Shown here in pieces: positions 2,707 through 23,020 of a stretch of 23,212 bases of DNA. The notes beneath the pieces were generated by a model. It was not told where the DNA came from and did not search any database. It saw nothing but the letters and a program-made list of their open reading frames with translations. The stretch's first letter is position 1. The number at the start of each line of letters is the position of its first letter. The stretch spans positions 1 to 23,212 of the forward strand of contig JAGSPR010000048.1 in NCBI GenBank assembly GCA_018262455.1. The letters run 5' to 3'. The position numbers were made by a program, and so were the translations under genes. Source of the DNA: Deltaproteobacteria bacterium. GTDB taxonomy: Bacteria > Myxococcota > Polyangia > Haliangiales > Haliangiaceae.

Positions 2707-5136
2707 CTAAGGGAGGTCGTGCGCGCGGGCAACCGGCACGGTCGTGCGCGCACTGCGCAACACGTCACCGACCGTGATGCGCGCCGTCTCGCCGAACTGC
2801 TCCGGCACCATGATGATCGCCGGCGCGAACGGCCCGAAGAACGCGAGCAGCGTGCGCAGGTGGCTCGCGTGGAGGTGGCACGGGATGCCCGCATCGCCGA
2901 GGACGCGCTCGATGACGCCGGCGTACTGGATCTGATGGAGCACCCCGACGGGGACGAGCCTCCTGCGGTGCGCCCGCGCGTCGGCGATCATGTCGAGCAC
3001 GACCGCGGCTCCGATCATCGCGCCGACCGGCTCGGCGAACCCGACGCTCACATCGGTTCGCGTGGCAACGAGCCACAGCACCATGACGCTGCCGAGCAGC
3101 AGCGCGCTCACCAGCGTGGCCCGCCGCCACGCTGCGCGCGTCGGGCGGTCGAGCCCGGCCTGCATCGCGACGCGTTCGACGAGGGAGGGCCGAGAGAACA
3201 GCCACGCCCAGATCGGGATCGAGACGAGGACGATGCCGAACGCCAGCCAGGGATCGCGCTGCAGGCCGCTGATCCACACCGCCGCGTCGTCGAACGAATC
3301 GCCGAACTTGAGCGCGGACAGCATCATCACGAGGAACACCAGCGCCGCCGTGTCGCGGAGCGGCGCGACGCCCGTCACTGGCATCCGCAGCGCCGATTCG
3401 CGCTCGCCCGTCGCCACGCGCCAGCGCAGCACGTTCGCGGTGGCGATCACGATCGCGGTGAGCGTCACGAAGCCGAGGAGGTGGCCTCGGGTCAGGAGGT
3501 CCGGCCACGCGCCCGGCTCGGCAACGTAGGGCTGGACGAGCCCGAGCAGCGTGCTCGTCACGATCACGACGCCATAACCATTGCCGAGCCCGTGCTCGCG
3601 GATCATGCCCGCGACGACCGCGAGGACCAGCGTGCCCGACGCGAGCGACCCCATGACGAGCAAGCGGAACTGCCAGCCCGTTCGCTCGACGATGGTGGTG
3701 TGACGGCCGAAGCCCAGCAGCCCATCTCCAAGCGATTCGAGGTACCTCGCCATGAAGTAGCCCTGGATCAAGGCGAACACGATCGCGAGCACCGCGACCC
3801 CCTGCCCCAGAGCGACGCGACCCAGCGCATCATGGCGTCGCCAGCGCAGCCGCGGCACGATCAGCGCGACGAGCTCGACGAGGAAGAACGCCACGAAGAT
3901 CGGCCCGACGCCGAGCGCGACGACGCTGAACGAGCTGCCAAGGTCGCGACCCATGACGTGCTCGAGCTCGTCGCCGTTGAGGCCTGGCAACACCAGCTTG
4001 CCCCCGATCACCAGGACGACGGGAGCGAGCAGGGTCACCGCGAGGCGACGCCATGGAAACACACCGACCACGGGCGCCGGCTTCGCGCGCCACACCGGTC
4101 GCGCGAGCCGCAGGACGAACCCCACCAGCAGGGCGAACGCGAGGCCAGCGCCGAGGCCAAGCAGCAAGCGGGCCGCCCACTCCTGATTGCGAACATCGGC
4201 CGGTGGCGTCCAGGTGTGGGCCTCGACCTTTCCGCCGGGCGGCAGCGCGCCCTGCGCGAGCACGGCGACGAGCGCACGGGCTTCGCGTTCGGGATCGGAG
4301 CCGCCACCCATCGTGATCGACACACGCCCACCGCAGATCCGGTCGTTGATGATCGGCGCGGAGCGGATCCGGCCACCGAGGATCGTGGCGAGCTTCCGGG
4401 TCACGAGCCGTGCGGTGACGTCGCAGAACCGCTCGCCGCCTCGTCGCGTGAGGTCGAGCAGCACGACCGGTCGGTTCGAGCTCGGCTCGAACGACTGTGT
4501 CGCGCCCGAGATCATCGACCCGTCGATCAGCACCTCGGACGCGAGCTCGTAGGTGCGCCAGTACGGTCGTTGATCCTGATCGCGAAGGTCCGGCTCGACG
4601 AATTCGAAGCCGAGCTCGTGATGGGCTGGAAGCGACCAGCCACGCGCGGTCGCGTTGGCGATTGCCTTGTCGAGAGCGGCGCGGGTGTACGCCTTGAGGA
4701 ACGGGTTGGTGTGCGCCGGCCCGTCATCCTCGGTATGCCAGCTATCGACATCGAGGAAGACCTCGTCGGTCTCGCCGATCCCCACCGCGTAGTCGGTCTC
4801 GAGCACCTCCTTCATCGCGAGGCCGCCTCCCGCGAGCGTCTCGATGATCTCGGTGGAGAGGTCCTCGGAGAGACCTGGGAATTCGAGGACGAGCATGTCG
4901 CGATCGCGACGCACGTCCGCGCGCTGCGCGAGGTACTGCTCGAACGCCGCCTCCGAGCCCGGAGCCGGCCGGTAGCGCACGCGCAGCCCACCGATCCGGT
5001 CGACGCCGCCGGGGCCACCGAGCAACGAGACCGCCGCGTCGGGAATCGGCCGGATCAGGAACGTGATCACGACGTACAGCGCGACGAGCAGCCCCGCGAC
5101 GATGGCCGCACGCGCAGGTCTCACGGGCTCGATCAT
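2707..5136 (-). CDS. SecD P1 domain - SecY-like channel - DUF2007-like chimeric membrane protein
   Basis: 809-residue membrane protein that combines parts of two Sec translocase subunits. One N-terminal helix (about 7-28) is followed by a periplasmic region. Residues about 213-300 (SFEPSSNRPVVLLDL..., LATILGGRIRSAPIIND, ARALVAVLAQGALPPGG) match the end of the SecD P1 domain. Two helices follow (about 320-385), then a SecY-like part: FSVVALGVGPIFVAFFLVEL...VPRLR (about 402-430) resembles SecY TM2, IREHGLGNGYGVVIV (about 510-524) resembles the TM5 'GIGNG' motif, and GAMIGAAVVLDMIADA (about 704-719) resembles TM10. The SecY cytosolic 'PGxRPG' motif is missing: only LDRPTRAAW is present. The last 85 residues (AGIPCHLHASH..., IIMVPEQFGETAR) look like DUF2007. 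I chose ATG 5136 because it precedes the first helix; there is no clear Shine-Dalgarno, and the frame is open back to 5301. The opposite-strand frame is rejected because only this strand gives hydrophobic helices. The role is unknown; a specialised export or membrane-insertion factor is possible. Confidence 0.78.
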   Translation of the reverse strand: MIEPVRPARAAIVAGLLVALYVVITFLIRPIPDAAVSLLGGPGGVDRIGGLRVRYRPAPGSEAAFEQYLAQRADVRRDRDMLVLEFPGLSEDLSTEIIETLAGGGLAMKEVLETDYAVGIGETDEVFLDVDSWHTEDDGPAHTNPFLKAYTRAALDKAIANATARGWSLPAHHELGFEFVEPDLRDQDQRPYWRTYELASEVLIDGSMISGATQSFEPSSNRPVVLLDLTRRGGERFCDVTARLVTRKLATILGGRIRSAPIINDRICGGRVSITMGGGSDPEREARALVAVLAQGALPPGGKVEAHTWTPPADVRNQEWAARLLLGLGAGLAFALLVGFVLRLARPVWRAKPAPVVGVFPWRRLAVTLLAPVVLVIGGKLVLPGLNGDELEHVMGRDLGSSFSVVALGVGPIFVAFFLVELVALIVPRLRWRRHDALGRVALGQGVAVLAIVFALIQGYFMARYLESLGDGLLGFGRHTTIVERTGWQFRLLVMGSLASGTLVLAVVAGMIREHGLGNGYGVVIVTSTLLGLVQPYVAEPGAWPDLLTRGHLLGFVTLTAIVIATANVLRWRVATGERESALRMPVTGVAPLRDTAALVFLVMMLSALKFGDSFDDAAVWISGLQRDPWLAFGIVLVSIPIWAWLFSRPSLVERVAMQAGLDRPTRAAWRRATLVSALLLGSVMVLWLVATRTDVSVGFAEPVGAMIGAAVVLDMIADARAHRRRLVPVGVLHQIQYAGVIERVLGDAGIPCHLHASHLRTLLAFFGPFAPAIIMVPEQFGETARITVGDVLRSARTTVPVARAHDLP

Positions 5137-5277
5137 GGATGGATAACGCCCGACGATGGCGATGGCGTCAAGCGAACAACCGCCGTCGACGTCCCTCCTC
5201 GCGCTCACCTTCGGTTCGCGGGCACGCTGGCCGCGGGCAAGCTCGCGCACGCCATGCCGGTCATGCGGATGACGATG

Positions 5278-5299
5278 GCGAAGCCCAAGGCGGCTTCGC
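5278..5299 (-). terminator. Hairpin downstream of the DUF2752-like gene
   Basis: A perfect 8-bp stem (GCGAAGCC / GGCTTCGC) with a 6-base loop lies 19 bases past the stop of the DUF2752-like gene and about 140 bases before the SecD-SecY gene start. There is no U tract, so it may be a weak or factor-dependent terminator, or only a stem in the leader of the next gene. Confidence 0.35.
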
Positions 5300-5318
5300 A
5301 CCAGTAGGGCTCCTCACG

Positions 5319-10409: not shown

Positions 10410-11450
10410 TCAGATGAAGCGCATCAGCGTGACGGAGTCGTCGTCCAGCTCGCGGTCAACGTGGGGGGCAGCGGGCGCTTCCGAAACAGCGGGCTCCCTG
10501 GCGAAGAACAGGTGCACAGCGAGCAACTGCTTGCCGATGCGGCCATCCTTCGTCGCGAACCCGATGCGGATGTCGGTGACACGGTCGGGAATGACGGCGA
10601 TCGAGAGGGTCGTCGCGGTCGAGAACACGCGCCACATCCCGAGTCCGGCCCCGCCGCGGCTCTCATCCAGCGCGACGGAGCTCGCGTTGCACCGGTTCAA
10701 GACCTCGAGCAGGCGATCGCGCTTGAGCGCGCCAAACGTGTCACGGACGCGGACGAAGGCGTCCCCGTACTCGATGCCGTAGCTGATCTCGCATGCCCGA
10801 TCGAGCGGCAGCTCGACGTCCTCGGTGCGAGGAATCGCGTGCTCGAAGTAGCCGGCCTCGACCGGGGCATCGTAGAGCGCGTTCGTCACCAGCTCTTCCG
10901 CCACCTCCGTGATCGTCGCGATCGTGCGATGCGACAGCTCGTGTTTGGAGAAGAACTCGCGCATGCGGTCGAACCGCGCTCCACGACGGCTCGCCCGTGC
11001 CAGCAAGGCGACGCGCCCGATGCCCGGGCCACCCACCATGGACTGGTCGGGTCCGTGCGGGAGGAGGTCCAGCAGGCTGGTCAGGTGGCTCCGCGCCATC
11101 GGGTTCGAGAGCAGCGACGCCACGATGACATGCGACAGCCAGGGCGATGACTCGAGCGAGCGGATGGTCTTGGTGAGCGAGCTCGAGAGCGTGTCATCGA
11201 TGATCGCCACGATGGGAGCATTCGTGGTCACGCCGTCGATCAGGTGGAACAGATCGCTGTCGACGAACGCGACCGCGTCGGGCTTCGCGGTCTCGAGCAG
11301 GAAGTCCGCCCGGTTGGTCACGGTGACCGTGGACCCGGGTAGTGCCGCGCGGATCAGGGCGGCGTGTGCCTCTCCCGCAAACAACACCGCGTAGCGCGCT
11401 CCCCAGCTCACCAGGTGAGCATGACCATTACCGTGTTCGAAGGAAACCAC
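10410..11450 (-). CDS. Receiver-like / GHKL ATPase-like protein (soluble paralogue)
   Basis: 346-residue soluble protein. The N-terminal third (YAVLFAGEAHAALIRAALPG, AVAFVDSDLFHLID, APIVAIIDDTL, SHVIVASLLSNP) has the alternating strand/helix look of a response-regulator receiver or pseudo-receiver. Residues about 175-290 look like a GHKL ATPase: an N-box EVAEELVTNALYDAP with N190, a G1-like VRDTFGAL (D237, where classical kinases have DxGxG), and a G2-like RGGAGLGM (about 262-270). No phospho-acceptor His domain is seen. The divergent gene at 21026 encodes a paralogue sharing NALYDAPV, VRDxFG and GGAGxG. This gene lies 31 bases after the giant TPR gene on the same strand, so it is probably in its operon. 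The start is GTG 11450 with a weak Shine-Dalgarno; GTG 11411 is an alternative. It may be a kinase-like or switch ATPase. Confidence 0.75.
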   Translation of the reverse strand: MVSFEHGNGHAHLVSWGARYAVLFAGEAHAALIRAALPGSTVTVTNRADFLLETAKPDAVAFVDSDLFHLIDGVTTNAPIVAIIDDTLSSSLTKTIRSLESSPWLSHVIVASLLSNPMARSHLTSLLDLLPHGPDQSMVGGPGIGRVALLARASRRGARFDRMREFFSKHELSHRTIATITEVAEELVTNALYDAPVEAGYFEHAIPRTEDVELPLDRACEISYGIEYGDAFVRVRDTFGALKRDRLLEVLNRCNASSVALDESRGGAGLGMWRVFSTATTLSIAVIPDRVTDIRIGFATKDGRIGKQLLAVHLFFAREPAVSEAPAAPHVDRELDDDSVTLMRFI

Positions 11451-11481
11451 TGGATCGCGCCCCTACCCCACCCGTAACTCA

Positions 11482-14400
11482 TCACGAGACCGGGGGAGCG
11501 GGTCCGCGATCCTCGCCCAGCGCGAACGCGATCAACGCCTGAACGATCGGGTCCTCGAGGATCCCTGTCAGCTGGGTGTTCACCGACGCCGCCAGGATGG
11601 AGAGGCCCGAGAGGATGCTCCCCGAGGCGACCAATCCTGCGCGAAGCCCCGCGATCTTGAGATCTCGCGCGAGCACATGGTGACTGAAGCCGGTCACTGC
11701 AAGTGCATGTGGGCGGACGTCGTTGAGCAGCCCCGCGGAGATCAGCCGGCGCAGCTTCGGTAGCCGAGCGTTCACCTCGCCGAGGTCGACCCCGGGACTG
11801 GTGAGCTCCGGCTGAACGAGCCGCAACACGGCGACGGTCACGATCCCGAGCTCTTCGGGCGGTAGGCGCGCCGGTATCGCGAGCGAGAGCTGTGCGAGCT
11901 TGAGCGCGGCGCCAGCGGCGAACCTGATCCCCTCGGGGGCGCCTGCAGCGATCGCCGCCCCGAGGATGAGCGACACCGGGTTGGTGGGCTCGGCAACCAT
12001 CGCGTAGGGCTGGCGGTGGGAGATGTAGACGTCGAGGTCAGAGAACCCGAAGCTCGTGGCGACCTCGCGAGCGGTCACGGCGATGGGATCGACGGAACGC
12101 AGCCGGTCCTTCCGACCGACTCCGTGGACGTTGAGATCGACGCCGATGTGCTTGGCCAGGACCTCTCCCAGCAAGCGGAACACCAGGCGAAGCTCGTGCG
12201 ACAAGGTGCGAGGAAACAGCACCTCGTGGCCTGGACTGACCAACAACGAACGATCAACGGGTGGCGGTCCGGCGACCAGGCGCTGTTCGGGCTCGCCGCC
12301 CGCGCCGAGTAACTGCGCGAGCTCCGCGGCCGCGCGCGCGATCGGCGGCGAGCCGTCGCCCATGGCCTCGGCCCGGGCCGCGTTCGCGCGCGCGATCACG
12401 CGATACGCCACGCCATCGGTCACGCTGTGCGCGATCCGCAAGCGCATCAGCTCGGCGACGCGATCCAGCTGGACGGACATCGCCATCGGATCGCCCCGGC
12501 CCCGGAAGAACTTCACGAGGCGTTGCAGGCCGTCGTCGCTGGTCGGCGCCTTTTCGAGCGCGAGGATCAGCATGCGCTCGGTGCGATCCGGATCGTGGAA
12601 CCCCTGCTCGAAGATCGTCGCGGCGCGGTGGAGGTGTAGCGCGAGCTTCTCGGGGTCGTGTTCGGCCGTGACGAGCTGCTTGCATGCATCGAGCGCGACC
12701 TGCCACTGACCCGAGCGGATCGCGAGATCGGTGAGCTGGATCAGCACATTCTCGTCGTCGGGCTTGTAGGTCAGCGCACGCTGGAAGGCGCTCGAGGCGA
12801 GCGCCGGATCGTGATCGCCATAGATGATCCCCAGCCGGTAGTGCAGCGTCCGCAGGATCTCGGGATCGGTCTCGAGTCGGACACGCGCGGTCACGGCGTC
12901 AGCCGTCTCCTGCCAGGTTCCGTGCTCGGTGGCGAGGTCAGCGATCGCAGCGTGCGCCCGCACGTCGGCCGGATTGATCGTGAGGATCGTCCGGTAGTGC
13001 TGCATCGCAGCCTTGCGATCTCCGACGTTCCAGCCGTGCTCGGCGAGCGTGCGGTGGAGCTCGACCTGCGCGGCTTGATCCGGCTCGATCTTGAGCCGTT
13101 GACGCAGCAGCGTCGCGAGCTCGTCGGCCTTCCCGGTGGTCTCGAACAAGGTCCGGAGCCGGGAGAACGCATCGAAGTGGCCAGGATCCGCAGCGAGCGC
13201 GAGCCGGAACATCGAGATCGCCGGCTCGGTGGCACTCGCCTTGTCCATCAAGGCGACCCCTGCGAAGTGATAGCGGGCCGCGAGCGCCCCCGGATCGCCT
13301 CCGAGCTCGCCGTGGTGGATCGCCGTTTCGGCGAGCTCCGCCCACAGCTCCCCATCGAGCGCGGTCTGATGCCAGGCGTCGAGCGCCGGCAGGTAACTGG
13401 GCAGCGCGTCGACGGCTCGAGCGAACCGCTTCACCGCCTCCTCCGGCTTGCCGAGCCCCGCGAGCGTCTCGCCGGCCCTGGTCAGGAACGCGGCCCTGGC
13501 GCGTGGATCCTGGAAGGTGTCGGAGATCCGCTCGTCCAGCGCGACGAGCTCGTCGGACAACCCGGCGCGACACGCGATCGATTCGAGGTGAACCAGCATG
13601 AGGCGGTTCCCCGGCTCGGTGTCCAGCGCGGCGCGGTAAGCCGCGGCCAGCTCTGCATCGGAGCGCTTGGCACGAACGGCGAGCGTCGTGCTGTCCATGA
13701 CCATGGCGGCGAGGTCCTGGGCGCCGCCTGCTGGCAGGGTGCGCCGGATCTGCTCGACTTCGCGCTCGCGCAGGTTGAGCAGCTGGCGATACCGACCACC
13801 CGCGATCAGCTCGCGTTCGAGCCGATGCATGAGATCGAACCGCGTGGGGTCGGCCTTCGACGCGCTCTCCAGCGCGATCTGCGCGGCCGTCCGGTCGTCA
13901 CGCAGCTCGAGCTCGACGCGCGCGAGCAGCTCGTAGGCCTCGGCTTTGGCCAGCGTATCGCCGAGCGCCTCGGCCGATCGGAGCTGGTCGAGCGCGAGCT
14001 CGGTGATCGGAGTCGGCGTGCGGAGCTGGGTAGCGATCTGGATGAGGGGCGCGGCAGCGAGCGCATCGGCGGGCTTGAGCTGGAGCGCGCGCTGGTACAG
14101 CTCCACCGCTACCGCGCCAGCGCCTTGTGCCGCAGCGAGATCCGCCTCGCGCAGGATGCGCAGGAACGAACCACGGCTCGGTGGAGGTCCCTCCCCACTC
14201 GAGGATGGGCTGCTGGCACGGCGAGCGGCCGCGTCGACCAGATCGTCGACCGAGCCGGGCAATGCCTGGTTGACCCGGGCCAGGAGCGATGTGGCGCGCG
14301 GCACATCGCCGGCATCGAGCGCGAGTTGCGCGGCGCGTAACCGGAGCGTCGCCGCCTCACGACCCTCCGCACCTTCGTGCAGTGTGTCGAGCTGCGCGGC

Positions 14401-17400
14401 ACGGTCCTCGAGGGCGGTTGCGGCGTCACCGAGATCGCGACGGTGTGCCGCGGCCATCATCGCCGTGAGCGTGCGCCTTGGATCGTCGAGCCCTGGCGCG
14501 GCCTCGCGGGCCACGTCGTGAGCCAGCCTCGGATCGTCGACGAGGAGCAGGCGAGCGTGCCGGAGGGCGAGACTCGAGGCCGCCCACGCCGAGTGCTCCG
14601 CCGACTGCGCACGCACGAGCACCTCGGCGAGGATGCCAGGGTCGTCGAGCCGCCTCGCCAGGACCATCGCAGCGGCGTGCGCGACCGGCGCCCGCGGGTC
14701 GTCGGCGAGCACGAGGTCCCACGCGTCGAGCGCCGCCATGGTCGCGTGTTCGATCTCGTCGCTGGCGGAGGGATCGGTGGAGGCGGCCGCGACCGCTCGG
14801 TCCCAGGCGAGCGCCTTGCGCAACCGGGCGACCTCGCCAGCCAGCAGGCCCGGGTCAGCGGCCAGCTCATCGACCAGCTTTGCGCGCTCGCTCCATCGCC
14901 CGGCGATGGCAAGCGCGCCGGCGAGGGCTTCGGCGATGGCCACCGACGCAGGTCGTTGGTCGCGACCGCGCACCAGGACGGCGAGCGCGGCGTCGACCTG
15001 ATGGCGGCCGAGCAGCTCGGCCGCGGCACGCAGCAGCGGCGGGTCTTGCTGGGCAGCCTCGGCGATCTGGAGGTCGAGCTCGGTCGCCAGATCCGCCTCC
15101 CCTGCGTCGATGTGTACGGCTCGCAGCTGCGCGGCCGCGTAGTCGTCGCCCGGATCGAGCTCGAGCACCTGTGCCCACAGTCGCCCGAGCCGCGTGGGCT
15201 CGAGCTCTGCGGCGCGCGCGGCGGCATAGGCGCGCTCGTCAGGCGTGGACTTGCAGCGTGCCCACCGGCTGAACGCGTGCAGCGCGAGCGTGGAATCGCC
15301 CGCAAGGAGCGCGGTCTCGGTTGCGACCCGAGCGACGAGGGGATCGCGTGGAGCGGCGCGCGCCGCCAGCTGCGCCGCGGCGACCATGGTCTCGCGACCC
15401 ACATCCGTCGGCACCTCGCGTGCGATCCAGACCTGCGCACGCACCGCGAGTGCAGCAGCGGTGATCGGATCCTCGCCTTCGACGTGACACGCGAGATCGA
15501 GCAAGGCGACACCGGCCGCCTCGCCTCGGCCCGCGGCGGCGGCCTGACGGATCGCCGCGAGCCGCGTCGCCGGGGAATCCGGATCCGACGCGGCGGCGTG
15601 GGCGAACCAGAGGGCCGCGGTCGCCTGGTCGCCGTCGTGGGCCGCGACCACCGCGCGGGCAGATTGCACGGCACGACGCAGCATGGGATCGGTCACCGCG
15701 TGGGCGAGCAGCTCGAGCGCCTTGGCGAACTCGGCCGCGCGGTCATCGACAAACATGAGCTCGAGGTTCGCGAGCAAGGCCGAAATATCGAGTGGCGCGC
15801 TGTCGAGCAACTCACCCACCGCGACACGAGCGACGTCCAGTTCGCCGGTGGCCATCAGCAGGTCGATGCGGTACCGCAACAGCGCATCGCGCTCGCGCCC
15901 GGTGGCGATGGCGAGCTCGACATCGACCAGCCGCGCCACCTCGCCGAGATCACCGTTGTCGCGCGCGATCCGACGCAGGCCGCGCAGCGCCTCCCTGGCA
16001 TGCGGGTTCGCGACCAGCGCCGCCTCGTAGTGGGCGGACGCGCGGTCGGTGTCGTGGAGCGCTTCACAGAGCCGGCCGGCTTCGATCCGCAGCGAGACCG
16101 CGGTCGCTGGATCGTCGATCGCCGCGATCTCGGATTCGTACTGGAGCAGCGGTTCTGCCGAACCGTCGTCCGTTCTCGTTGCGTGGAGCTGATCGAAGGA
16201 GAGCATCACCACGGCCGAGTCGTCGGGCTCCATCTCTCGGGCCTCGGCAAACTGGAGCGCACCGGGATCGAACCAGGGTGTTGTCTCGTCGACTCCCTCG
16301 AGACTCGGACCTGCACCACGAAACACCGCGGCAAGGTCGAGCGCAGGAGGCACGAGCCTGCCATCAGGCGCCTGGCCGGTCTCCGCGTGGGCGGGTGAGG
16401 CGGGCTGGGCGTCGCGCACCGTCGGCTCGAGCTTCGGCACGTCCCCCGTGATCTCGAGGTCGTAATCGTCAGGAGCCCCGGCCTTGGCCGCGCGCCGCTC
16501 CTGTTCCTGGAGCTCCGAGAGATCGCTGCGCACGGTGTTGGCGGCGAACGGATCTTCCGCGTCCACGACGGTCGGCGCCGCGGTCGCCATCCCCGTGGGG
16601 GTACGGCGGATGATCGCCGGCGTGCGACGGGTGGCTGGCTGGGCGGACGACGGGGTCGGAGCATCGGCGCGTGGTGGCGTCTCCCGCGGGGCTGCGACCG
16701 GAGCGATCTCGGCCGTGATCGGATCCACCGAGTCCGTGGTTTCGAGATCCCAGCCCTGGTCGACCTCCCTGTCGACCTTGTGAACATCGGTCTTCGGCTC
16801 GCGCAGCTCGGTCTTCGGCTCGCGCAGATCGGTCTTCGGCTCCTCGTCGAACGCCGGCGCCGTCCGACCGTGGGGTGCGGCGACGGGCGGCGGGGCCAGG
16901 CCGTCCTCTCGCTTGAGAGCCTGGTCGAGCAGGAGCTCGATCTCGGCGCGTCGCGGACCATCGGTCTCGACCGCGAGATATTTCCACCACAGCCCGATCG
17001 CCTCATCGACGTCCCCGGCGTCGATCGCGAGGGCGGCCCGGAGCCGGAGCGCCTCGGCGTTGTTCGGGACGTGGGCGAGTAGCGCGTCGAGGTCGGCGCT
17101 CGCATCGCCGACCCGGCCGACCTCGTGCAGCAACCTGGAACGCTCGAGCAGGAGCGGGATCATCTCTGGCTCGGTTCCAGGCGCCGCTGCGAGCTGGGTC
17201 AGCCGTCCGGTCAGCGCTTCGATCTTGCTGCGGGCGTCACCGTGCTCGCACACCAGGACGAACAGTCGTTCCGACTCGGGAGCCGCGGGATCCAGGGCCA
17301 CGATCCGGCGGTAGGTGGCGAGCGCTCGCTCCGGGTTGCCAGCGGATCCAGGTTGATCGAACACGCCGGCCGCGTCGCGCAGCATCCCCAGGCTCCATCG

Positions 17401-20400
17401 AGGATCGCGGCTGAGCCCTGCGAGCGCACAGCTCGCGTGAGCCCAGGTCGTGTGGTCGCCGGCGCGGTGGGCCATCCTGCGCAAGGCCAACGCCGCACGG
17501 CGGTCGTCGGGTGTGAGCAGGAGCACCGCTGCGACCACGGTCGCCGCTTCGCGCAGCTGACCTGCGAGCTCGAGCGCTTCGGCGCGGTCGAGCTCCCACG
17601 AGGCGCGACCTGCCGGATCGTCAATGAGCGAACCACGGGTCCCGAGGATCTCGGCGCGGGCGATCAGCTGATCGTCGGCGGCAAATGGATCGTCCTTGTC
17701 GATCGGCTTCGTCGAGCCGACCTCCGCTGCCACGAACAGCGCGTTGATGTTGTCTGGCGCAGCGGTTCGCGCCGACTCGAGTCGCTCGTTCGCGAGCTCG
17801 ATATCGCCGGTCGCGGCGGCGATCGCGGCCCCTCGCAAGAACAACGCGACCGCGGCGTCAGGCATCTGGACCGACGACGCGAGCTGCACGTACGCCTCAC
17901 CCGCGTGGAGCCGTCCGGACTGCCGCGCGGCCACCAGCGCGGCACCCAGCAAGGCGCCCTGGCTGGTCGGCTGGAGCGCGAGTGCCGCGCTGAACGACTG
18001 CGCCGCGTGCTCGAAGTCGTCGAGCGCGACCACGTACATCCAGCCACTGTTCTCGAACAGCGCCGCACCGAGCCGAGGATCGGTGGTGCGCCTGGCCAGG
18101 ACATCACTCGCCTCGATGCGCATCGCCAGGTCGCCAGCACGCGCCGCGAGATCCTGGATCGCGAGGGTGGCGCTCGTGGCAGCGACCAACGAATCCTCGA
18201 TGGTCGCCAGCGGGCGGTACTCCTCGGCGGCCTGGTCGTACGACCCTGCACGCTCGAGGCTGCGAGCGAACAACCACCGGGCATCGGCGATCGGGTCGAG
18301 CTCGACGATCTTGGCGCGCACCGTGACTTCTCGACGGTGATCGCCGAGCTGCGCGCGACAGCGCGCGAGGCCTTCGAGGGCGATGCGGTCGTCCGGCAGC
18401 CGCCCGATCCACGCTTCGTAGACGTCCGCAGCCTGGGCAACATCCGAGAGCAAGATCTCGAGCACCCAAGCGGCCTCGCGCAACGCACGGCGCACCGCCG
18501 GTCCATCGGACTGCGCAGCCGCCTCGGCGCGCCGCTCGGCCACGAGCTCGACCCATCGCGCCTGCTGGCGCAGCAGCCCGATCAGCGCGTCGCGCGCGAA
18601 CCCATCCTGGGGCCCCAGCGCGAGCAGCTGGCGATACTGGTCCGTCGCCAGCTCGACCGCGCCCGCGCGCTCGTGAAGCCGGGCGGCGCCAAGCAGCGCG
18701 GTCCGGCGCCGGGCCGGATCGGAGTCGCGCCGGGCAAGCTCGCCCAGCAACGCGGCGCGCTCGGCGTCGCGCCCGAGCTCGAACAGCGTCGCCTCCAGTC
18801 GCCAGCCGATCACGCAGTCATCCGGATCGGCGATGACGAGCTCACGCTCGAGCTCGAGCACGACCTCCATCAGACCATGGCCGCGCGCGAGCCGGATCGC
18901 CCGCTCCACGATCGCACGACGCGCAGGTCCTGCGGCCGCACTCGCCAGCACGCGCAACCGCGCGATCGCCGGCAACGCACGGCCGGTGGTGTCGTCGAGC
19001 TCGGTCAACGCCTCGACCACCGCCGGATGCTCGGGCGCGGCCTCGAGTGCCTTGCCGAGCGCCTCGCGGGCCTGCTCGAGCGTCGCAGGCGTCCCGACGT
19101 AGTACGCGAGCAGGTCGGCGGCCTGGACGTAGAGTGCGGCCGCCGCATCCGGGTCGGGCCGCAAGGGCGCGCCTGGACCGAGCCAGCTCCCGCGCACCGC
19201 GGCCCCGGCCGCCGCGAGATAGGTCTTGGCGAGATCGAGAGGTACCCAGACCCGCGACGGATCGGCGAGTGCGGCGCATTCTGCCGATGAGGTGAGCAGC
19301 AGGAAGCCCGGCGCCGTGGCCTCGAGCCTCTTCAGCAGCGCGCGGATCTGTTCTCGTCGATCCTCGCGGAGGTGGGCCGCGGCGCACCAGAATGACAGCA
19401 TCGTCGCCAGGCCCGCGTCGCCGAGGATTGCGTGGCCGCTTTGCACCAGCTGCACGAGATCATCGGAACGACCGAGCTCGGCGGCGAGCTCGACCAGCTC
19501 GATGACCACGACGGGCTCTTCGGGATCCAGCGCGAGCGCTTGCTGGAGGTGGTCCCATGCCTTGAGTGGCTGCTCGGCGCGGTCGCGTTGTGCCTGACGC
19601 CGGCGCAACGCGACCAGCTCGCTCCTTCGCGCGAACGCACGATTCACGTGCTCCCCGGGCTGGATCACGATGGGTGCGCCGACAGGTCGTCCCGTCGCGG
19701 CGATCAACTGCTGGGCGAGCGCTTCGATCGCCGCTTCGATGTCGGCGGGGTTGCCGTACTGGTCGGCGACCCGTAGCCGTTCGCGCGCGACTCGCACCCC
19801 GAGGGTCCGACGCGCCGGCGCGCTCTGCGATTCGGCAAGCTGCGCCGCGTGGTCGAACGCTGCTCGAGCACGGCCGAGGTCAGACGCCGCGGCAGCACGG
19901 ACGACCTCGAGCCAGTACGTGACCTTGCGATCGGGCTGCTCGATCGCCTCGGCGAGGCGCTCCCAGACGCCGAGCAAGGCCGGCAGATCGCCGGTTCGCG
20001 TGACCACGCGCTCGAGCTCGAGCAGAGCGCGCTGATGCCGGGGGTCGAGCTCGATGGCCGCTTCGAGCGCGATCCGGGCCTGCGCCTCGGAGCTCCCCTG
20101 GTGGCCGAGGACAACCGCGCGCTCGACCAACAACTCGACGCGCTCGGAGACGTCTGTGGCATCGCCGAGCTCGGCATCGAACAGCTCGAGGAGGTCGGCC
20201 CACAGCGCGCGGTGATAGAGCACGCGGCGGAGCGCCCACAGGTTGGGCCGCAACGACACGTCGAGCTCGAGCGCGCGGCGGTACGCAGAGAGCGCGCGGG
20301 CCTCGTCCCGGAGCCGTCGCTCGCACAGCTCGCCGAGCTCGTACGCCAGGATCGCCGCGCCCACCGGATCCGTGGCCGCCGCTGCTTCGACATCCTTGGC

Positions 20401-20886
20401 CAGCTGCTCGGCGCGAGCCTGATGGCTGGCCCCAGCCCGCATGGCGAGCGCGCGATCGACGACGGTGGGCGACGCTGGCTGGTTCGATGCGAGCTTCGGC
20501 GCCGCACCACTGCCGAGACCGAGGCTGCCGGGTGGCCGGGGCTCGGTCCCGAACGCCAACATGGTCCCGTTGGTGAAGCTCGGACGCTTGCGTCGTTCCA
20601 CCGATGGAATCGGTGGAGGAACCGACCGCGCGATCCGACGCTCAGGGGAATGAGGTGGACCCGGCGACATCGCTGGCGACGGCTCGTTCCCGCCCTCGAT
20701 CGCAGCGCCGGCCTCGATCGTGGCAGCCGATGCGGTCTCCGCAGGGCTCACCACAACAGCCCCCGCACCGGCCCCGGCGACTCGGTCAGGGCGCGGCGGC
20801 TGGCCGCCATCGCTGGCCCCTGCCTTCGTGTCGTCTTCCGGAGAACCCAACCCTCCGAGATCACCACCTGGTGTGCGAGGTGTCAA
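11482..20886 (-). CDS. Giant tetratricopeptide-repeat (TPR) scaffold protein
   Basis: 3,134-residue protein made mostly of TPR and related helical repeats, which bind partner proteins. Residues 1 to about 155 are disordered (Pro, Ala, Gly; VPPPIPSVERRKRPSF). About 160-1325 hold many TPR-like units such as AILAYELGELCERRLRDEAR and ASAHYEAALVANP-type helices. About 1325-1560 are disordered and contain a REPKTDL repeat. A second TPR block runs about 1580-2840. The last 265 residues (from LLVSPGHEVLFPRTL) form a different globular domain that I do not recognise. There is no signal peptide or membrane helix. The start is a TTG at 20886 after GAGG; just upstream in the same frame lies a strong Shine-Dalgarno with ATG-TAG. 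The nearest functional analogue I know is AgmK/GltI, the giant TPR motility protein of Myxococcus, but no other Glt genes lie nearby, so this is only a possibility. Confidence 0.93.
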   Translation of the reverse strand: MTPRTPGGDLGGLGSPEDDTKAGASDGGQPPRPDRVAGAGAGAVVVSPAETASAATIEAGAAIEGGNEPSPAMSPGPPHSPERRIARSVPPPIPSVERRKRPSFTNGTMLAFGTEPRPPGSLGLGSGAAPKLASNQPASPTVVDRALAMRAGASHQARAEQLAKDVEAAAATDPVGAAILAYELGELCERRLRDEARALSAYRRALELDVSLRPNLWALRRVLYHRALWADLLELFDAELGDATDVSERVELLVERAVVLGHQGSSEAQARIALEAAIELDPRHQRALLELERVVTRTGDLPALLGVWERLAEAIEQPDRKVTYWLEVVRAAAASDLGRARAAFDHAAQLAESQSAPARRTLGVRVARERLRVADQYGNPADIEAAIEALAQQLIAATGRPVGAPIVIQPGEHVNRAFARRSELVALRRRQAQRDRAEQPLKAWDHLQQALALDPEEPVVVIELVELAAELGRSDDLVQLVQSGHAILGDAGLATMLSFWCAAAHLREDRREQIRALLKRLEATAPGFLLLTSSAECAALADPSRVWVPLDLAKTYLAAAGAAVRGSWLGPGAPLRPDPDAAAALYVQAADLLAYYVGTPATLEQAREALGKALEAAPEHPAVVEALTELDDTTGRALPAIARLRVLASAAAGPARRAIVERAIRLARGHGLMEVVLELERELVIADPDDCVIGWRLEATLFELGRDAERAALLGELARRDSDPARRRTALLGAARLHERAGAVELATDQYRQLLALGPQDGFARDALIGLLRQQARWVELVAERRAEAAAQSDGPAVRRALREAAWVLEILLSDVAQAADVYEAWIGRLPDDRIALEGLARCRAQLGDHRREVTVRAKIVELDPIADARWLFARSLERAGSYDQAAEEYRPLATIEDSLVAATSATLAIQDLAARAGDLAMRIEASDVLARRTTDPRLGAALFENSGWMYVVALDDFEHAAQSFSAALALQPTSQGALLGAALVAARQSGRLHAGEAYVQLASSVQMPDAAVALFLRGAAIAAATGDIELANERLESARTAAPDNINALFVAAEVGSTKPIDKDDPFAADDQLIARAEILGTRGSLIDDPAGRASWELDRAEALELAGQLREAATVVAAVLLLTPDDRRAALALRRMAHRAGDHTTWAHASCALAGLSRDPRWSLGMLRDAAGVFDQPGSAGNPERALATYRRIVALDPAAPESERLFVLVCEHGDARSKIEALTGRLTQLAAAPGTEPEMIPLLLERSRLLHEVGRVGDASADLDALLAHVPNNAEALRLRAALAIDAGDVDEAIGLWWKYLAVETDGPRRAEIELLLDQALKREDGLAPPPVAAPHGRTAPAFDEEPKTDLREPKTELREPKTDVHKVDREVDQGWDLETTDSVDPITAEIAPVAAPRETPPRADAPTPSSAQPATRRTPAIIRRTPTGMATAAPTVVDAEDPFAANTVRSDLSELQEQERRAAKAGAPDDYDLEITGDVPKLEPTVRDAQPASPAHAETGQAPDGRLVPPALDLAAVFRGAGPSLEGVDETTPWFDPGALQFAEAREMEPDDSAVVMLSFDQLHATRTDDGSAEPLLQYESEIAAIDDPATAVSLRIEAGRLCEALHDTDRASAHYEAALVANPHAREALRGLRRIARDNGDLGEVARLVDVELAIATGRERDALLRYRIDLLMATGELDVARVAVGELLDSAPLDISALLANLELMFVDDRAAEFAKALELLAHAVTDPMLRRAVQSARAVVAAHDGDQATAALWFAHAAASDPDSPATRLAAIRQAAAAGRGEAAGVALLDLACHVEGEDPITAAALAVRAQVWIAREVPTDVGRETMVAAAQLAARAAPRDPLVARVATETALLAGDSTLALHAFSRWARCKSTPDERAYAAARAAELEPTRLGRLWAQVLELDPGDDYAAAQLRAVHIDAGEADLATELDLQIAEAAQQDPPLLRAAAELLGRHQVDAALAVLVRGRDQRPASVAIAEALAGALAIAGRWSERAKLVDELAADPGLLAGEVARLRKALAWDRAVAAASTDPSASDEIEHATMAALDAWDLVLADDPRAPVAHAAAMVLARRLDDPGILAEVLVRAQSAEHSAWAASSLALRHARLLLVDDPRLAHDVAREAAPGLDDPRRTLTAMMAAAHRRDLGDAATALEDRAAQLDTLHEGAEGREAATLRLRAAQLALDAGDVPRATSLLARVNQALPGSVDDLVDAAARRASSPSSSGEGPPPSRGSFLRILREADLAAAQGAGAVAVELYQRALQLKPADALAAAPLIQIATQLRTPTPITELALDQLRSAEALGDTLAKAEAYELLARVELELRDDRTAAQIALESASKADPTRFDLMHRLERELIAGGRYRQLLNLREREVEQIRRTLPAGGAQDLAAMVMDSTTLAVRAKRSDAELAAAYRAALDTEPGNRLMLVHLESIACRAGLSDELVALDERISDTFQDPRARAAFLTRAGETLAGLGKPEEAVKRFARAVDALPSYLPALDAWHQTALDGELWAELAETAIHHGELGGDPGALAARYHFAGVALMDKASATEPAISMFRLALAADPGHFDAFSRLRTLFETTGKADELATLLRQRLKIEPDQAAQVELHRTLAEHGWNVGDRKAAMQHYRTILTINPADVRAHAAIADLATEHGTWQETADAVTARVRLETDPEILRTLHYRLGIIYGDHDPALASSAFQRALTYKPDDENVLIQLTDLAIRSGQWQVALDACKQLVTAEHDPEKLALHLHRAATIFEQGFHDPDRTERMLILALEKAPTSDDGLQRLVKFFRGRGDPMAMSVQLDRVAELMRLRIAHSVTDGVAYRVIARANAARAEAMGDGSPPIARAAAELAQLLGAGGEPEQRLVAGPPPVDRSLLVSPGHEVLFPRTLSHELRLVFRLLGEVLAKHIGVDLNVHGVGRKDRLRSVDPIAVTAREVATSFGFSDLDVYISHRQPYAMVAEPTNPVSLILGAAIAAGAPEGIRFAAGAALKLAQLSLAIPARLPPEELGIVTVAVLRLVQPELTSPGVDLGEVNARLPKLRRLISAGLLNDVRPHALAVTGFSHHVLARDLKIAGLRAGLVASGSILSGLSILAASVNTQLTGILEDPIVQALIAFALGEDRGPAPPVS
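16786..16848 (-). repeat. Three-copy 21-base in-frame repeat (REPKTD-x)
   Basis: Inside the disordered middle of the TPR gene, a 21-base unit occurs three times in tandem, nearly identical, giving EPKTDLR-EPKTELR-EPKTDV. Charged, low-complexity heptads like this are typical of flexible linkers, and the copy number may vary between strains by slippage. Confidence 0.85.
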
Positions 20887-20904
20887 ATCAACGGACCTCG
20901 CCCC

Positions 20905-20920
20905 CTACATGTCGTCCTCC
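20905..20920 (-). promoter_or_regulatory. Strong Shine-Dalgarno followed by ATG-TAG start-stop, in frame with the TPR gene
   Basis: On the minus strand GGAGG (20920-20916), 5 bases, then ATG (20910-20908) and at once TAG (20907-20905). It is in the same frame as the TTG start at 20886, which lies 18 bases beyond the TAG. It may be a regulatory start-stop element feeding reinitiation, or the trace of a start lost by a single base change or sequencing error. Confidence 0.5.
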
Positions 20921-21011
20921 GGAAGGTCCGATCCAGCCAAGCCGCTTGCTTACATATGTGCTGGGCTGACCGTACTGCACTCCCAGGGGGCGTCGCCCGC
21001 GCTGCATACGC

Positions 21012-21017
21012 TACAAT
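21012..21017 (+). promoter_or_regulatory. Candidate -10 element (TACAAT) for the GHKL-PEGA gene
   Basis: TACAAT differs from the consensus -10 by one base and ends 8 bases before the GTG chosen as start of the GHKL-PEGA gene. No matching -35 is visible. If used, the transcript would begin at or next to the GTG, that is, be leaderless, which would fit the lack of a Shine-Dalgarno there. Confidence 0.35.
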
Positions 21018-21025
21018 TCGCGACG

Positions 21026-23020
21026 GTGCCCGCACAGCGGATCATCGCTGTCTCGCCCGACCAGGCGTTTGGCGACCAACTCGCGACCGCCCTCTCGCTC
21101 GCGGGTGCGGTCGAGACGCATCGAACGCTGGATTCGATCGGCAAGGCCCAGCTCCAGGCGCCGCTGTGGGTGATCCACTTCGATGGTGCGCTCATCGACT
21201 CCGCGGGCTCGATCTTGCGCCGGCTTGGCGACGACTCCCGGGTGATCGCGGTGTTGCCGCGCGCGAACCTCAGCTCGGTCGTCGGGCTCATGCAGACCTC
21301 GGAGCGCGTCGTCGGCATGATGGCGGCGGAAGACCTCGATCCGAGCCAGCTCTCCGCCATGGCCGCGCGGATCCTCACCGGCGACATCTTCGGGCTCGAG
21401 CAGCTGGTGATCCCGGGAACGCAGATCCACTCGCACGTCGTCGCCGACTACGAGGACAAGGCGCGGTGCATCGCGCAGGTCGCCGACTTTGCCGAGTTGC
21501 TCGGCGTGCCGCGAAAGTACGACGCGCCGATCGAGCAGTGCCTGGACGAGATGCTGATGAACGCGCTCTACGACGCTCCGGTGGACGAGCATGGCAAGTC
21601 GATCTTCGCGGACGTCCCGACGAAGACCCGGGTCACGCTGCGCATCGTGCAGCCGGTCCTCGTGCAGTACGCGTGCGACGGCAAACAGTTCGTGATCTCC
21701 GTGCGCGATGCGTTCGGCAGCCTCGAGCGTGCACGGTTGCTGCGCGTCTTGCACAAGTGCCTCCACGCGAAGGAGCAGATCGATCGCAAGGCCGGCGGTG
21801 CGGGCGTCGGCCTGTACATGATGGTCAACTCGTCGACCACGGTCTACTTCAGCGTGGTGCCGGGCGCCGCGACCGCGGCAGTCTGCATGTTCGATCTCGA
21901 GGCGCCGCAGCTGCAACTCGCGCAGTTCGGCTGCTTCGTCGAGCAGCGAGATCTTGCGGGCAGGCTCACGACAGGTCCCTCGCCCCGGATGCCCGCCGGG
22001 GTGCTACCTCCCGTCGTGCGGTCGCGCGCGGCGATTCGCGCACTTCGCGCCCGCATCGCGGTGATCACCGCGGCGATCGCCGCGATCGTGGCGATCGGCA
22101 TCGTCGCGTGGCCACGGATCTTCGTCGTCGTCAGCAAGACGACCGCGGTCACCTTCACGACGATCCCCAAGGGGGCGACCATCGAGATCGAAGGCCGTCA
22201 CGCGGGTACCGCCACGCAGGGCACACTGTCCGTCGACGATCTCGAGATCGGCCACGACTATCCCGTGGTCGTGCGACTCGACGGTTACGAGCCGAGGCGG
22301 ACGGTCGTGCAGCCCCACGCGGGCGCAAACGAGCTGCGCATCGAGCTCCAGCCGATCGTCCCGAGGGTCGAGCTCGACTCGGAACCGACCGGCGCCTCGA
22401 TCGAGATCGACGGCAAGCTGCTGGGAGGGACTCCGCTCACGGTGACCTCGCTCGTCCCCGGTAGGGAGGTGGCGATCGTATTCAAGCGAGCCGGTTATCG
22501 CGCCGCAACCGCGCGCCTCCAGGTTCCGCGAGCTGGCGAGACGAAGCGTCTCGTCCAGCCGCTCGAGGTCTCGGACGAGTTCGTGCGCGTGCACTTCGTC
22601 TCGGTCCCGTCGGGTGCTCAGCTGATCGAGCTCGGCACCCCGACGACCGCGGGCGCGAGCCGCACCTACACTCCCGCCGACGTGTTCGTCGAAGCCAACA
22701 AGGTCCAGCGCTTCATGCTGACGATGCCCGGCCACGTGCCGCTCGTCATCGAGCCGTTCACGCCAGCGCGTGGCGCCGGCGTGCTCGAGAAGGGCGGTCC
22801 CCTCATCGAGGGAGCCAGCCTTCACCTCGAAGCGACGCGCGACGGCAAGGTCACGGTCGTGGGTGCGCGGCATTGCCAGGATGTCGCGGTGCCGGTCGAC
22901 TGTACGCTTGCACCGGGCACCTATGTCGTCGAGTACGTCGGACCGAACAACGTCAAGGCGACGCACACGGTGAAGCTCACCGACGAAGCCTCGGCGTTCA
23001 AGTTCGAGCTCGCAAACTAG
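21026..23020 (+). CDS. Receiver-like / GHKL ATPase-like membrane protein with PEGA domains
   Basis: 664-residue protein. Residues 1 to about 130 resemble a receiver or pseudo-receiver (RIIAVSPDQAFGDQLATAL, PLWVIHFDGALID, SRVIAVLPR). About 165-290 are GHKL-like, related to the soluble paralogue at 10410: CLDEMLMNALYDAPVD (N179), VRDAFGSLERARLL (D228), KAGGAGVGLYM (257-262). A single membrane helix (about 342-364) is preceded by Arg-rich sequence, so the N-terminal domains should be cytoplasmic. Outside lie PEGA domains at about 373-441 (TTIPKGATIEIEGRHAG...GYEPRRTV) and 443-508 (SEPTGASIEIDGKLLGGTPL...AGYRAATA), a degenerate third (about 515-580), and a C-terminal beta domain with one Cys pair (HCQD, VDCT). 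PEGA domains are thought to bind cell-surface polymers or proteins. The gene is divergent from the giant TPR gene. GTG 21026 is a choice; the frame is open upstream, with ATG 20909 as an alternative that lacks a Shine-Dalgarno. Confidence 0.87.
   Translation: MPAQRIIAVSPDQAFGDQLATALSLAGAVETHRTLDSIGKAQLQAPLWVIHFDGALIDSAGSILRRLGDDSRVIAVLPRANLSSVVGLMQTSERVVGMMAAEDLDPSQLSAMAARILTGDIFGLEQLVIPGTQIHSHVVADYEDKARCIAQVADFAELLGVPRKYDAPIEQCLDEMLMNALYDAPVDEHGKSIFADVPTKTRVTLRIVQPVLVQYACDGKQFVISVRDAFGSLERARLLRVLHKCLHAKEQIDRKAGGAGVGLYMMVNSSTTVYFSVVPGAATAAVCMFDLEAPQLQLAQFGCFVEQRDLAGRLTTGPSPRMPAGVLPPVVRSRAAIRALRARIAVITAAIAAIVAIGIVAWPRIFVVVSKTTAVTFTTIPKGATIEIEGRHAGTATQGTLSVDDLEIGHDYPVVVRLDGYEPRRTVVQPHAGANELRIELQPIVPRVELDSEPTGASIEIDGKLLGGTPLTVTSLVPGREVAIVFKRAGYRAATARLQVPRAGETKRLVQPLEVSDEFVRVHFVSVPSGAQLIELGTPTTAGASRTYTPADVFVEANKVQRFMLTMPGHVPLVIEPFTPARGAGVLEKGGPLIEGASLHLEATRDGKVTVVGARHCQDVAVPVDCTLAPGTYVVEYVGPNNVKATHTVKLTDEASAFKFELAN

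Follow-up and report, generated by a model that had tools for sequence, protein, structure and literature searches.

What does a giant repeat protein do between two related GHKL-type genes, and does the trio form a system of its own kind? The question is raised by a 23,212-nucleotide stretch of DNA (the window: contig JAGSPR010000048.1, assembly GCA_018262455.1) from a Deltaproteobacteria bacterium assigned to the Myxococcota, where the genes of GH1, TPR-L and GH3 lie side by side. The answer that we consider probable is that GH1 and GH3 belong to the partner-switching kinases of the SpoIIAB/RsbW kind, each preceded by an atypical receiver-fold domain, and that TPR-L docks switch partners. The kinase assignment is the most likely one because many members of the family lie beside STAS-zinc-ribbon proteins or Ser/Thr kinases. 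On this reading the system is a variant of partner switching rather than a separate kind of system.

Architecture of GH1 and GH3

To judge from their sequences, GH1 and GH3 are paralogues: they share 34% identity over 121 residues (E 4e-19), and a hidden Markov model (HMM) of the GH1 family finds GH3 at 1.8e-24, which upholds the common descent proposed in a preliminary description of the window. The same account placed a receiver-like plus GHKL-like architecture on both sides of the TPR gene; predicted models of both proteins agree, pairing a receiver fold with a GHKL domain whose best fold matches are SpoIIAB/RsbW. As also described there, the soluble form lies 31 bases downstream of the TPR-L gene on the same strand (gap 11451-11481) and the membrane/PEGA form is divergent from it: the GH3 model continues with one helix (residues 379-399) and then beta domains, and PEGA, matched in two stretches, scores 61.2 bits (Pfam cut-off 20.8). 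The three open reading frames (ORFs) are confirmed at 10410-11450 (-), 11482-20886 (-) and 20720-23020 (+), with the following features.

10410..11450, minus strand: GH1, soluble receiver-fold plus GHKL (SpoIIAB/RsbW-like) protein, 346 residues, stop included
11052..11402, minus strand: GH1 receiver-fold domain, residues 17-133, with Asp64
10548..11027, minus strand: GH1 GHKL domain, residues 142-301
11482..20886, minus strand: TPR-L, giant TPR protein, longest ORF 3134 residues, fused paralogue of a two-gene TPR pair
16282..16914, minus strand: TPR-L low-complexity linker, about residues 1325-1535, junction of the two TPR halves
11485..12309, minus strand: TPR-L C-terminal part after the last TPR, boundary approximate, with no match specific to it in Pfam or among PDB sequences
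20563..20908, no strand: divergent intergenic stretch between TPR-L and GH3, provided that the database starts are correct; search for a sigma-70-type site negative
20909..23020, plus strand: GH3, receiver fold, GHKL, one transmembrane helix and PEGA-type beta domains, 703 residues, stop included; longest ORF from 20720
21029..21382, plus strand: GH3 receiver-fold domain, residues 41-158
21416..21901, plus strand: GH3 GHKL domain, residues 170-331
22043..22105, plus strand: GH3 helix 379-399, hydrophobic in sequence and on that account taken as transmembrane
22139..23005, plus strand: C-terminal beta domains of GH3 (residues 411-699), with Pfam PEGA matches in two stretches

The ATG at 20909 is most likely the start of GH3, as given by the 703-residue database record of the window protein, and the record of TPR-L (3026 residues) starts at about 20562, 108 residues later than the longest ORF; with these starts the divergent genes therefore need not overlap. 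Neither a promoter nor a terminator was found in the gap between them, and an Rfam scan of the window gave no match.

GH1 has no Pfam match, and its direct PDB sequence search returned a single match at E 2.3; GH3 reaches 19.0 bits with HATPase_c_2, below the Pfam cut-off of 27.4. The ATP site of both proteins keeps the N-box Glu and Asn, the G1 Asp and the glycine-rich lid: Glu185, Glu186, Asn190, Asp237, Gly240 and the motif GGAGLG are invariant in GH1 (25/25), and Glu214, Asn218, Asp267 and lid residues 297-299 and 301 are conserved in GH3 (30/30). The G1 box itself reads D-x-F-G, where the classical form is D-x-G-x-G. A canonical receiver combines a phospho-acceptor Asp with a beta-4 Thr/Ser and a beta-5 Lys. 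The Asp is kept (GH1, 23/25; GH3, 28/30), and no conserved Lys or Thr/Ser is found at the expected strand ends, as positioned from predicted strands; the receiver-fold domain is atypical and lacks the canonical response-regulator residue set.

STAS, kinase and phosphatase neighbours in relatives

The neighbourhoods of relatives fit partner switching. Genomes (G), contigs (C), loci (L) and database records (P) are cited below by our own handles. A STAS-zinc or kinase gene lies within 700 bp of 50 of 105 GHKL genes (one locus, L117, a second fetch of L057, left out of the count): 39/56 in the subfamily labelled 'other', 8/11 in the GH1-like, 1/7 in the GH1-proper and 2/31 in the GH3-type subfamily, so that 47 of the 67 genes outside the last two have such a neighbour. 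STAS-zinc genes alone lie this close to 32/105 GHKL genes, against 0/119 genes of TPR loci and 25/392 other genes of GH loci, rates that are biased because the loci were picked for holding GHKL genes. One protein fuses GHKL and STAS-zinc parts (L064:11053-12477), and other GHKL genes run into kinase-PEGA genes with an overlap of a few bases (L152).

An iterated HMM on the examined loci collects 46 STAS-zinc proteins with 79 STAS-like domains, most rows carrying CxxC pairs after the STAS part. One single-domain member scores above the Pfam STAS_2 and STAS cut-offs; a PDB sequence search matches the STAS part to 4hyl, 'Stage II sporulation protein' (E 6.5e-4), and the second half to zinc fingers. 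At the site that corresponds to the phosphoserine of RsbV/SpoIIAA, 44 of the 46 first domains carry Ser; the two exceptions look like later copies, labelled first domains because the ORF was cut. At the same position second domains have Ser in 1/33 and Pro in 24/33. A PP2C (SpoIIE) phosphatase is found in 16/16 related genomes, with 3-13 matches each, some of them on contigs G146:C263, G149:C42 and G004:C84. The claim that the locus resembles no Rsb system finds no support in these results, the predicted GHKL fold being SpoIIAB/RsbW-like and STAS genes being neighbours of many family members.

The start of a Ser/Thr kinase-PEGA gene is overlapped by a GHKL gene at L152:5139-9021 and L190:4992-8928, which suggests that either partner can carry the PEGA part. 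In several genomes (L045-L051) a distance of about 13-17 kb separates a gene pair, GHKL plus tandem STAS-zinc, from a second GHKL gene; at L045, the only one of these scanned along its length, genes of FadL-type, OmpA and TonB-receptor proteins lie between the two GHKL sites. At L061:5865-8966 the gene of a protein that combines some 16 EGF-like repeats with FG-GAP repeats adjoins the GH1-like/STAS-kinase cluster of G001:C303, and at L165 and L172 two small GHKL genes adjoin a glycine cleavage P-protein gene.

Searches with the GH1 alignment (E 1e-5) find matches in 51/144 genomes of the class, and searches with P0001 (E 1e-5) and GH3 (E 1e-10) each reach 32/35 genomes of the order, often with several genes per genome; elsewhere in the phylum the GH1 clade itself is met in 2 of 377 sampled genomes at E 1e-30, both already known. 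Named sources of the listed GH1 homologues are metagenome-assembled genomes given as Kofleriaceae, Myxococcales, Deltaproteobacteria or Proteobacteria; a functional name is attached to none of the 120 in the list. Among the papers that our literature searches listed, none deals with the family, and nothing is claimed beyond them. A tree of 60 of the 120 listed GH3 homologues plus loci above 400 bits places the window's GH3 in a clade of 20 rows (support 99), together with the GH3s of G002, G003, G146 and G149 that adjoin STAS-kinase or kinase genes or lie near them, and those of G001 and G004; its nearest supported group includes G146:C263. Sister-clade GH1-like genes occur in 7/35 genomes (G001-G005, G146 and G149), six of which have a cluster-type GH3 in the tree; that of G005 is a fragment and unplaced. 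Five core GH3 orthologues (L123, L124, L126, L131 and L142) have a common upstream context by gene size, of about 315, 594 and 184 residues, the gene of about 594 residues being an AAA ATPase in L126, the sole member scanned.

TPR-L and its linkage to the GH genes

TPR-L has clear repeat matches in Pfam (TPR_2, 46.5 bits against a cut-off of 27; TPR_8, TPR_17 and TPR_14 also above their cut-offs). Homologues of its C-terminal part occur in 30/35 genomes of the order; Pfam and PDB sequence searches with that part gave TPR matches, plus weak ones in a few members that are taken as chance. At the 13 canonical loci where both TPR halves were seen, they are two neighbouring ORFs, and at canonical loci a gene of about 700 residues is often next (with PPC and Big_9 domains in the single member scanned). 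The window holds the fused form, its halves joined via the low-complexity linker. Among the best 120 of 229 homologues, from a search that considered candidates of about 1720 residues upward, five long forms exceed 3000 residues, the window's included, and the remaining 115 measure 1724-2283.

A quick 150-row tree unites the five long forms, P0248 and the proteins of G005:C204 and G146:C263 in one clade (support 100 in the Shimodaira-Hasegawa-like approximate likelihood-ratio test, SH-aLRT). A careful tree kept 53 of these rows, with eleven long-branch rows left out and canonical rows thinned; it gives the TPR-L clade 100/100 without P0335 and G005:C204. Since a canonical TPR is present in G005 and G146 as well, the TPR-L clade is a paralogue. 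Standing in a clade apart, TPR-L is not simply the orthologue of the canonical TPR genes.

The association of GH genes with TPR-L is real and recurrent, and it is loose. TPR-L is followed by GH1 at G005:C204 too, 50 bp downstream, where adjacency to GH3 cannot be checked because the contig ends inside TPR-L. Two pairs of GH1 and TPR-L records, P0005/P0247 and P0023/P0248, come from contigs of identical size (127,632 and 713,209 bases), a coincidence of listed sizes and not of sequence; across the three lists of 120, the GH3 list has no contig size in common with the GH1 or TPR list except the window's own. On the 41-kb contig G146:C263 the order is GH1-like, STAS-kinase, GH3, double STAS, SpoIIE and TPR-L, with other genes between.

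An accident of neighbourhood, in which GH1, TPR-L and GH3 evolve independently and TPR-L has an unrelated job, has several findings in its favour. The three-gene order, and GH3 beside TPR-L at all, is seen only in the window; the examined flanks of the 31 canonical TPR loci, short in several, hold no GH gene; five of the six other GH1-proper loci lack a TPR neighbour, so that TPR-L adjoins GH1-proper at 2/7 loci including the window (2/8 with L058, which is GH1-proper by tree, though the score rule put it with the GH1-like genes). In G001, the genome with the best matches to GH1, GH3 and the TPR C-terminus, these genes are spread over separate contigs, with a single TPR match. The recurrence at G005:C204, the two pairs on equal-sized contigs (other list pairings match only at the window), the single contig of G146 and the fall of all GH-linked TPRs into one clade, also without G005:C204, speak against accident, which we regard as rather unlikely.

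The three-gene module of the preliminary description thus stands as a recurrent link of TPR-L with GH genes, found in the window, G005:C204, G146:C263 and the two contig-size coincidences, and falls as a fixed arrangement: the unique order, the canonical loci (0/31) and the separate contigs of G001 rule out such a module as a general rule. That description had staked itself on the relatedness of the two GHKL proteins and on the three genes staying together; the proteins prove related, and the genes mostly are not together in relatives. A single clade of TPR-linked GH1s is also ruled out, since these are scattered in the GH1 tree (P0005-P0123 plus loci above 160 bits). The genes of relatives were mapped with a simple ORF picker, whose score is length times the difference between third-position and second-position G+C content (GC3 minus GC2); it overlooked at least one GH1-like gene (G149:C42:34085-35002) and a STAS-kinase gene in the joined G146:C263 contig.

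In a closer bond, GH1 and GH3 would have given up STAS partners and would act on TPR-L itself, this last being what the same description proposed, with the two as an ATPase-switch pair on a scaffold. Such a bond would suit the position of GH1, 31 bases downstream on the TPR-L strand, and the six of seven GH1-proper genes with no STAS or kinase neighbour within 700 bp; it sits poorly with the STAS gene divergent from the G001 GH1, 344 bp away, and with the five of six other loci where GH1 has no adjoining TPR-L, and we hold it to be quite improbable.

Elsewhere in the window, an 864-residue ORF (2707-5301, minus strand) looks like a SecD-SecY fusion: its residues 249-354 match SecDF_P1_head and its residues 459-620 a part of SecY.

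The switch as proposed, and known systems

Several observations weigh against partner-switching kinases with TPR-L as docking platform. The window was searched for STAS genes and yielded none, and the support from neighbourhoods is weakest for the window's own subfamilies, GH1-proper and GH3-type; their low adjacency to STAS or kinase genes (1/7 and 2/31) means that the STAS partner is inferred mainly from sister subfamilies. The G005:C204 TPR has a long branch, with its placement flagged as unsure, and is absent from the careful tree; the GH genes of G146 lie about 12-19 kb from TPR-L; and TPR-L as partner or scaffold is an inference. Among the matches listed, no sigma gene adjoins GH1 or GH3 relatives on cluster contigs, the only one on such a contig being about 34 kb away (G149:C42).

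Sigma factors are nonetheless plentiful, with 23-78 Sigma70_r2 matches in each of the five genomes searched, and GH1 and GH3 might act as anti-sigma factors like LvrC of Leptospira, holding a sigma factor directly and releasing it on a change of receiver state, without a STAS partner. The lack of an adjoining sigma gene among the matches listed counts against this as well, as do the STAS neighbours common in the family and the receiver, which is without the usual beta-5 Lys and beta-4 Thr/Ser, whereas that of LvrC is reported to be canonical and phosphorylated by LvrB (PMC13269768). We judge it unlikely.

If GH1 and GH3 are partner-switching kinases, each GHKL domain would bind a STAS partner whose gene lies at another place in the genome and phosphorylate that partner with ATP, and a SpoIIE-type phosphatase would reset it. 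The receiver domain may tune partner binding; GH3 would couple the switch to the envelope via its helix and PEGA domains, and GH1 would work in the cytoplasm. TPR-L, duplicated and fused, would have become a neighbour of the GH genes and is the probable dock for at least one partner of the switch. More tentatively, and on balance doubtfully, the accessory set in some Kofleriaceae-like Myxococcota could form an envelope-linked hub, with receiver-RsbW kinases (one of them PEGA-anchored), tandem STAS-zinc-ribbon kinases and a SpoIIE phosphatase gathered on TPR-L. If GH1 and GH3 do act as such a switch, testable partners become available for many unnamed proteins, and STAS switches would seem to take input from Ser/Thr kinases of myxobacteria; a clear test case for a giant repeat protein as docking platform is the TPR-L clade.

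The family looks like an expanded partner-switching repertoire. Receiver fusions, PEGA anchors, STAS with zinc ribbons and STAS-Ser/Thr kinase fusions are, to our knowledge, not known together from Rsb systems. GH1 and GH3 differ from SpoIIAB/RsbW (1th8, 6m37) in the receiver in front and the D-x-F-G G1 box, GH3 also in its PEGA tail, and the window in having no STAS gene. SypE of Vibrio fischeri, unlike GH1 and GH3, also carries a phosphatase domain, and we know of no PEGA or TPR partner of SypE-SypA. The likeness lies in SypE being reported as a response regulator of several domains that acts as a serine kinase on a STAS protein (PMC10120452, PMC3610818). CapK-CapS, a kinase and its substrate repressor whose paper matches both GHKL and STAS in its text (PMC13373217), controls immune operons after DNA damage. 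LvrC (PDB 9qih), the top Foldseek match of GH1 over both domains, likewise has a receiver followed by an RsbW/SpoIIAB-like GHKL domain; it differs in its canonical receiver, in sequence and geometry (13% identity, root-mean-square deviation of about 20 over both domains) and, as far as the available part of its description goes (PMC13269768), in having no membrane or PEGA part of the kind that GH3 carries.

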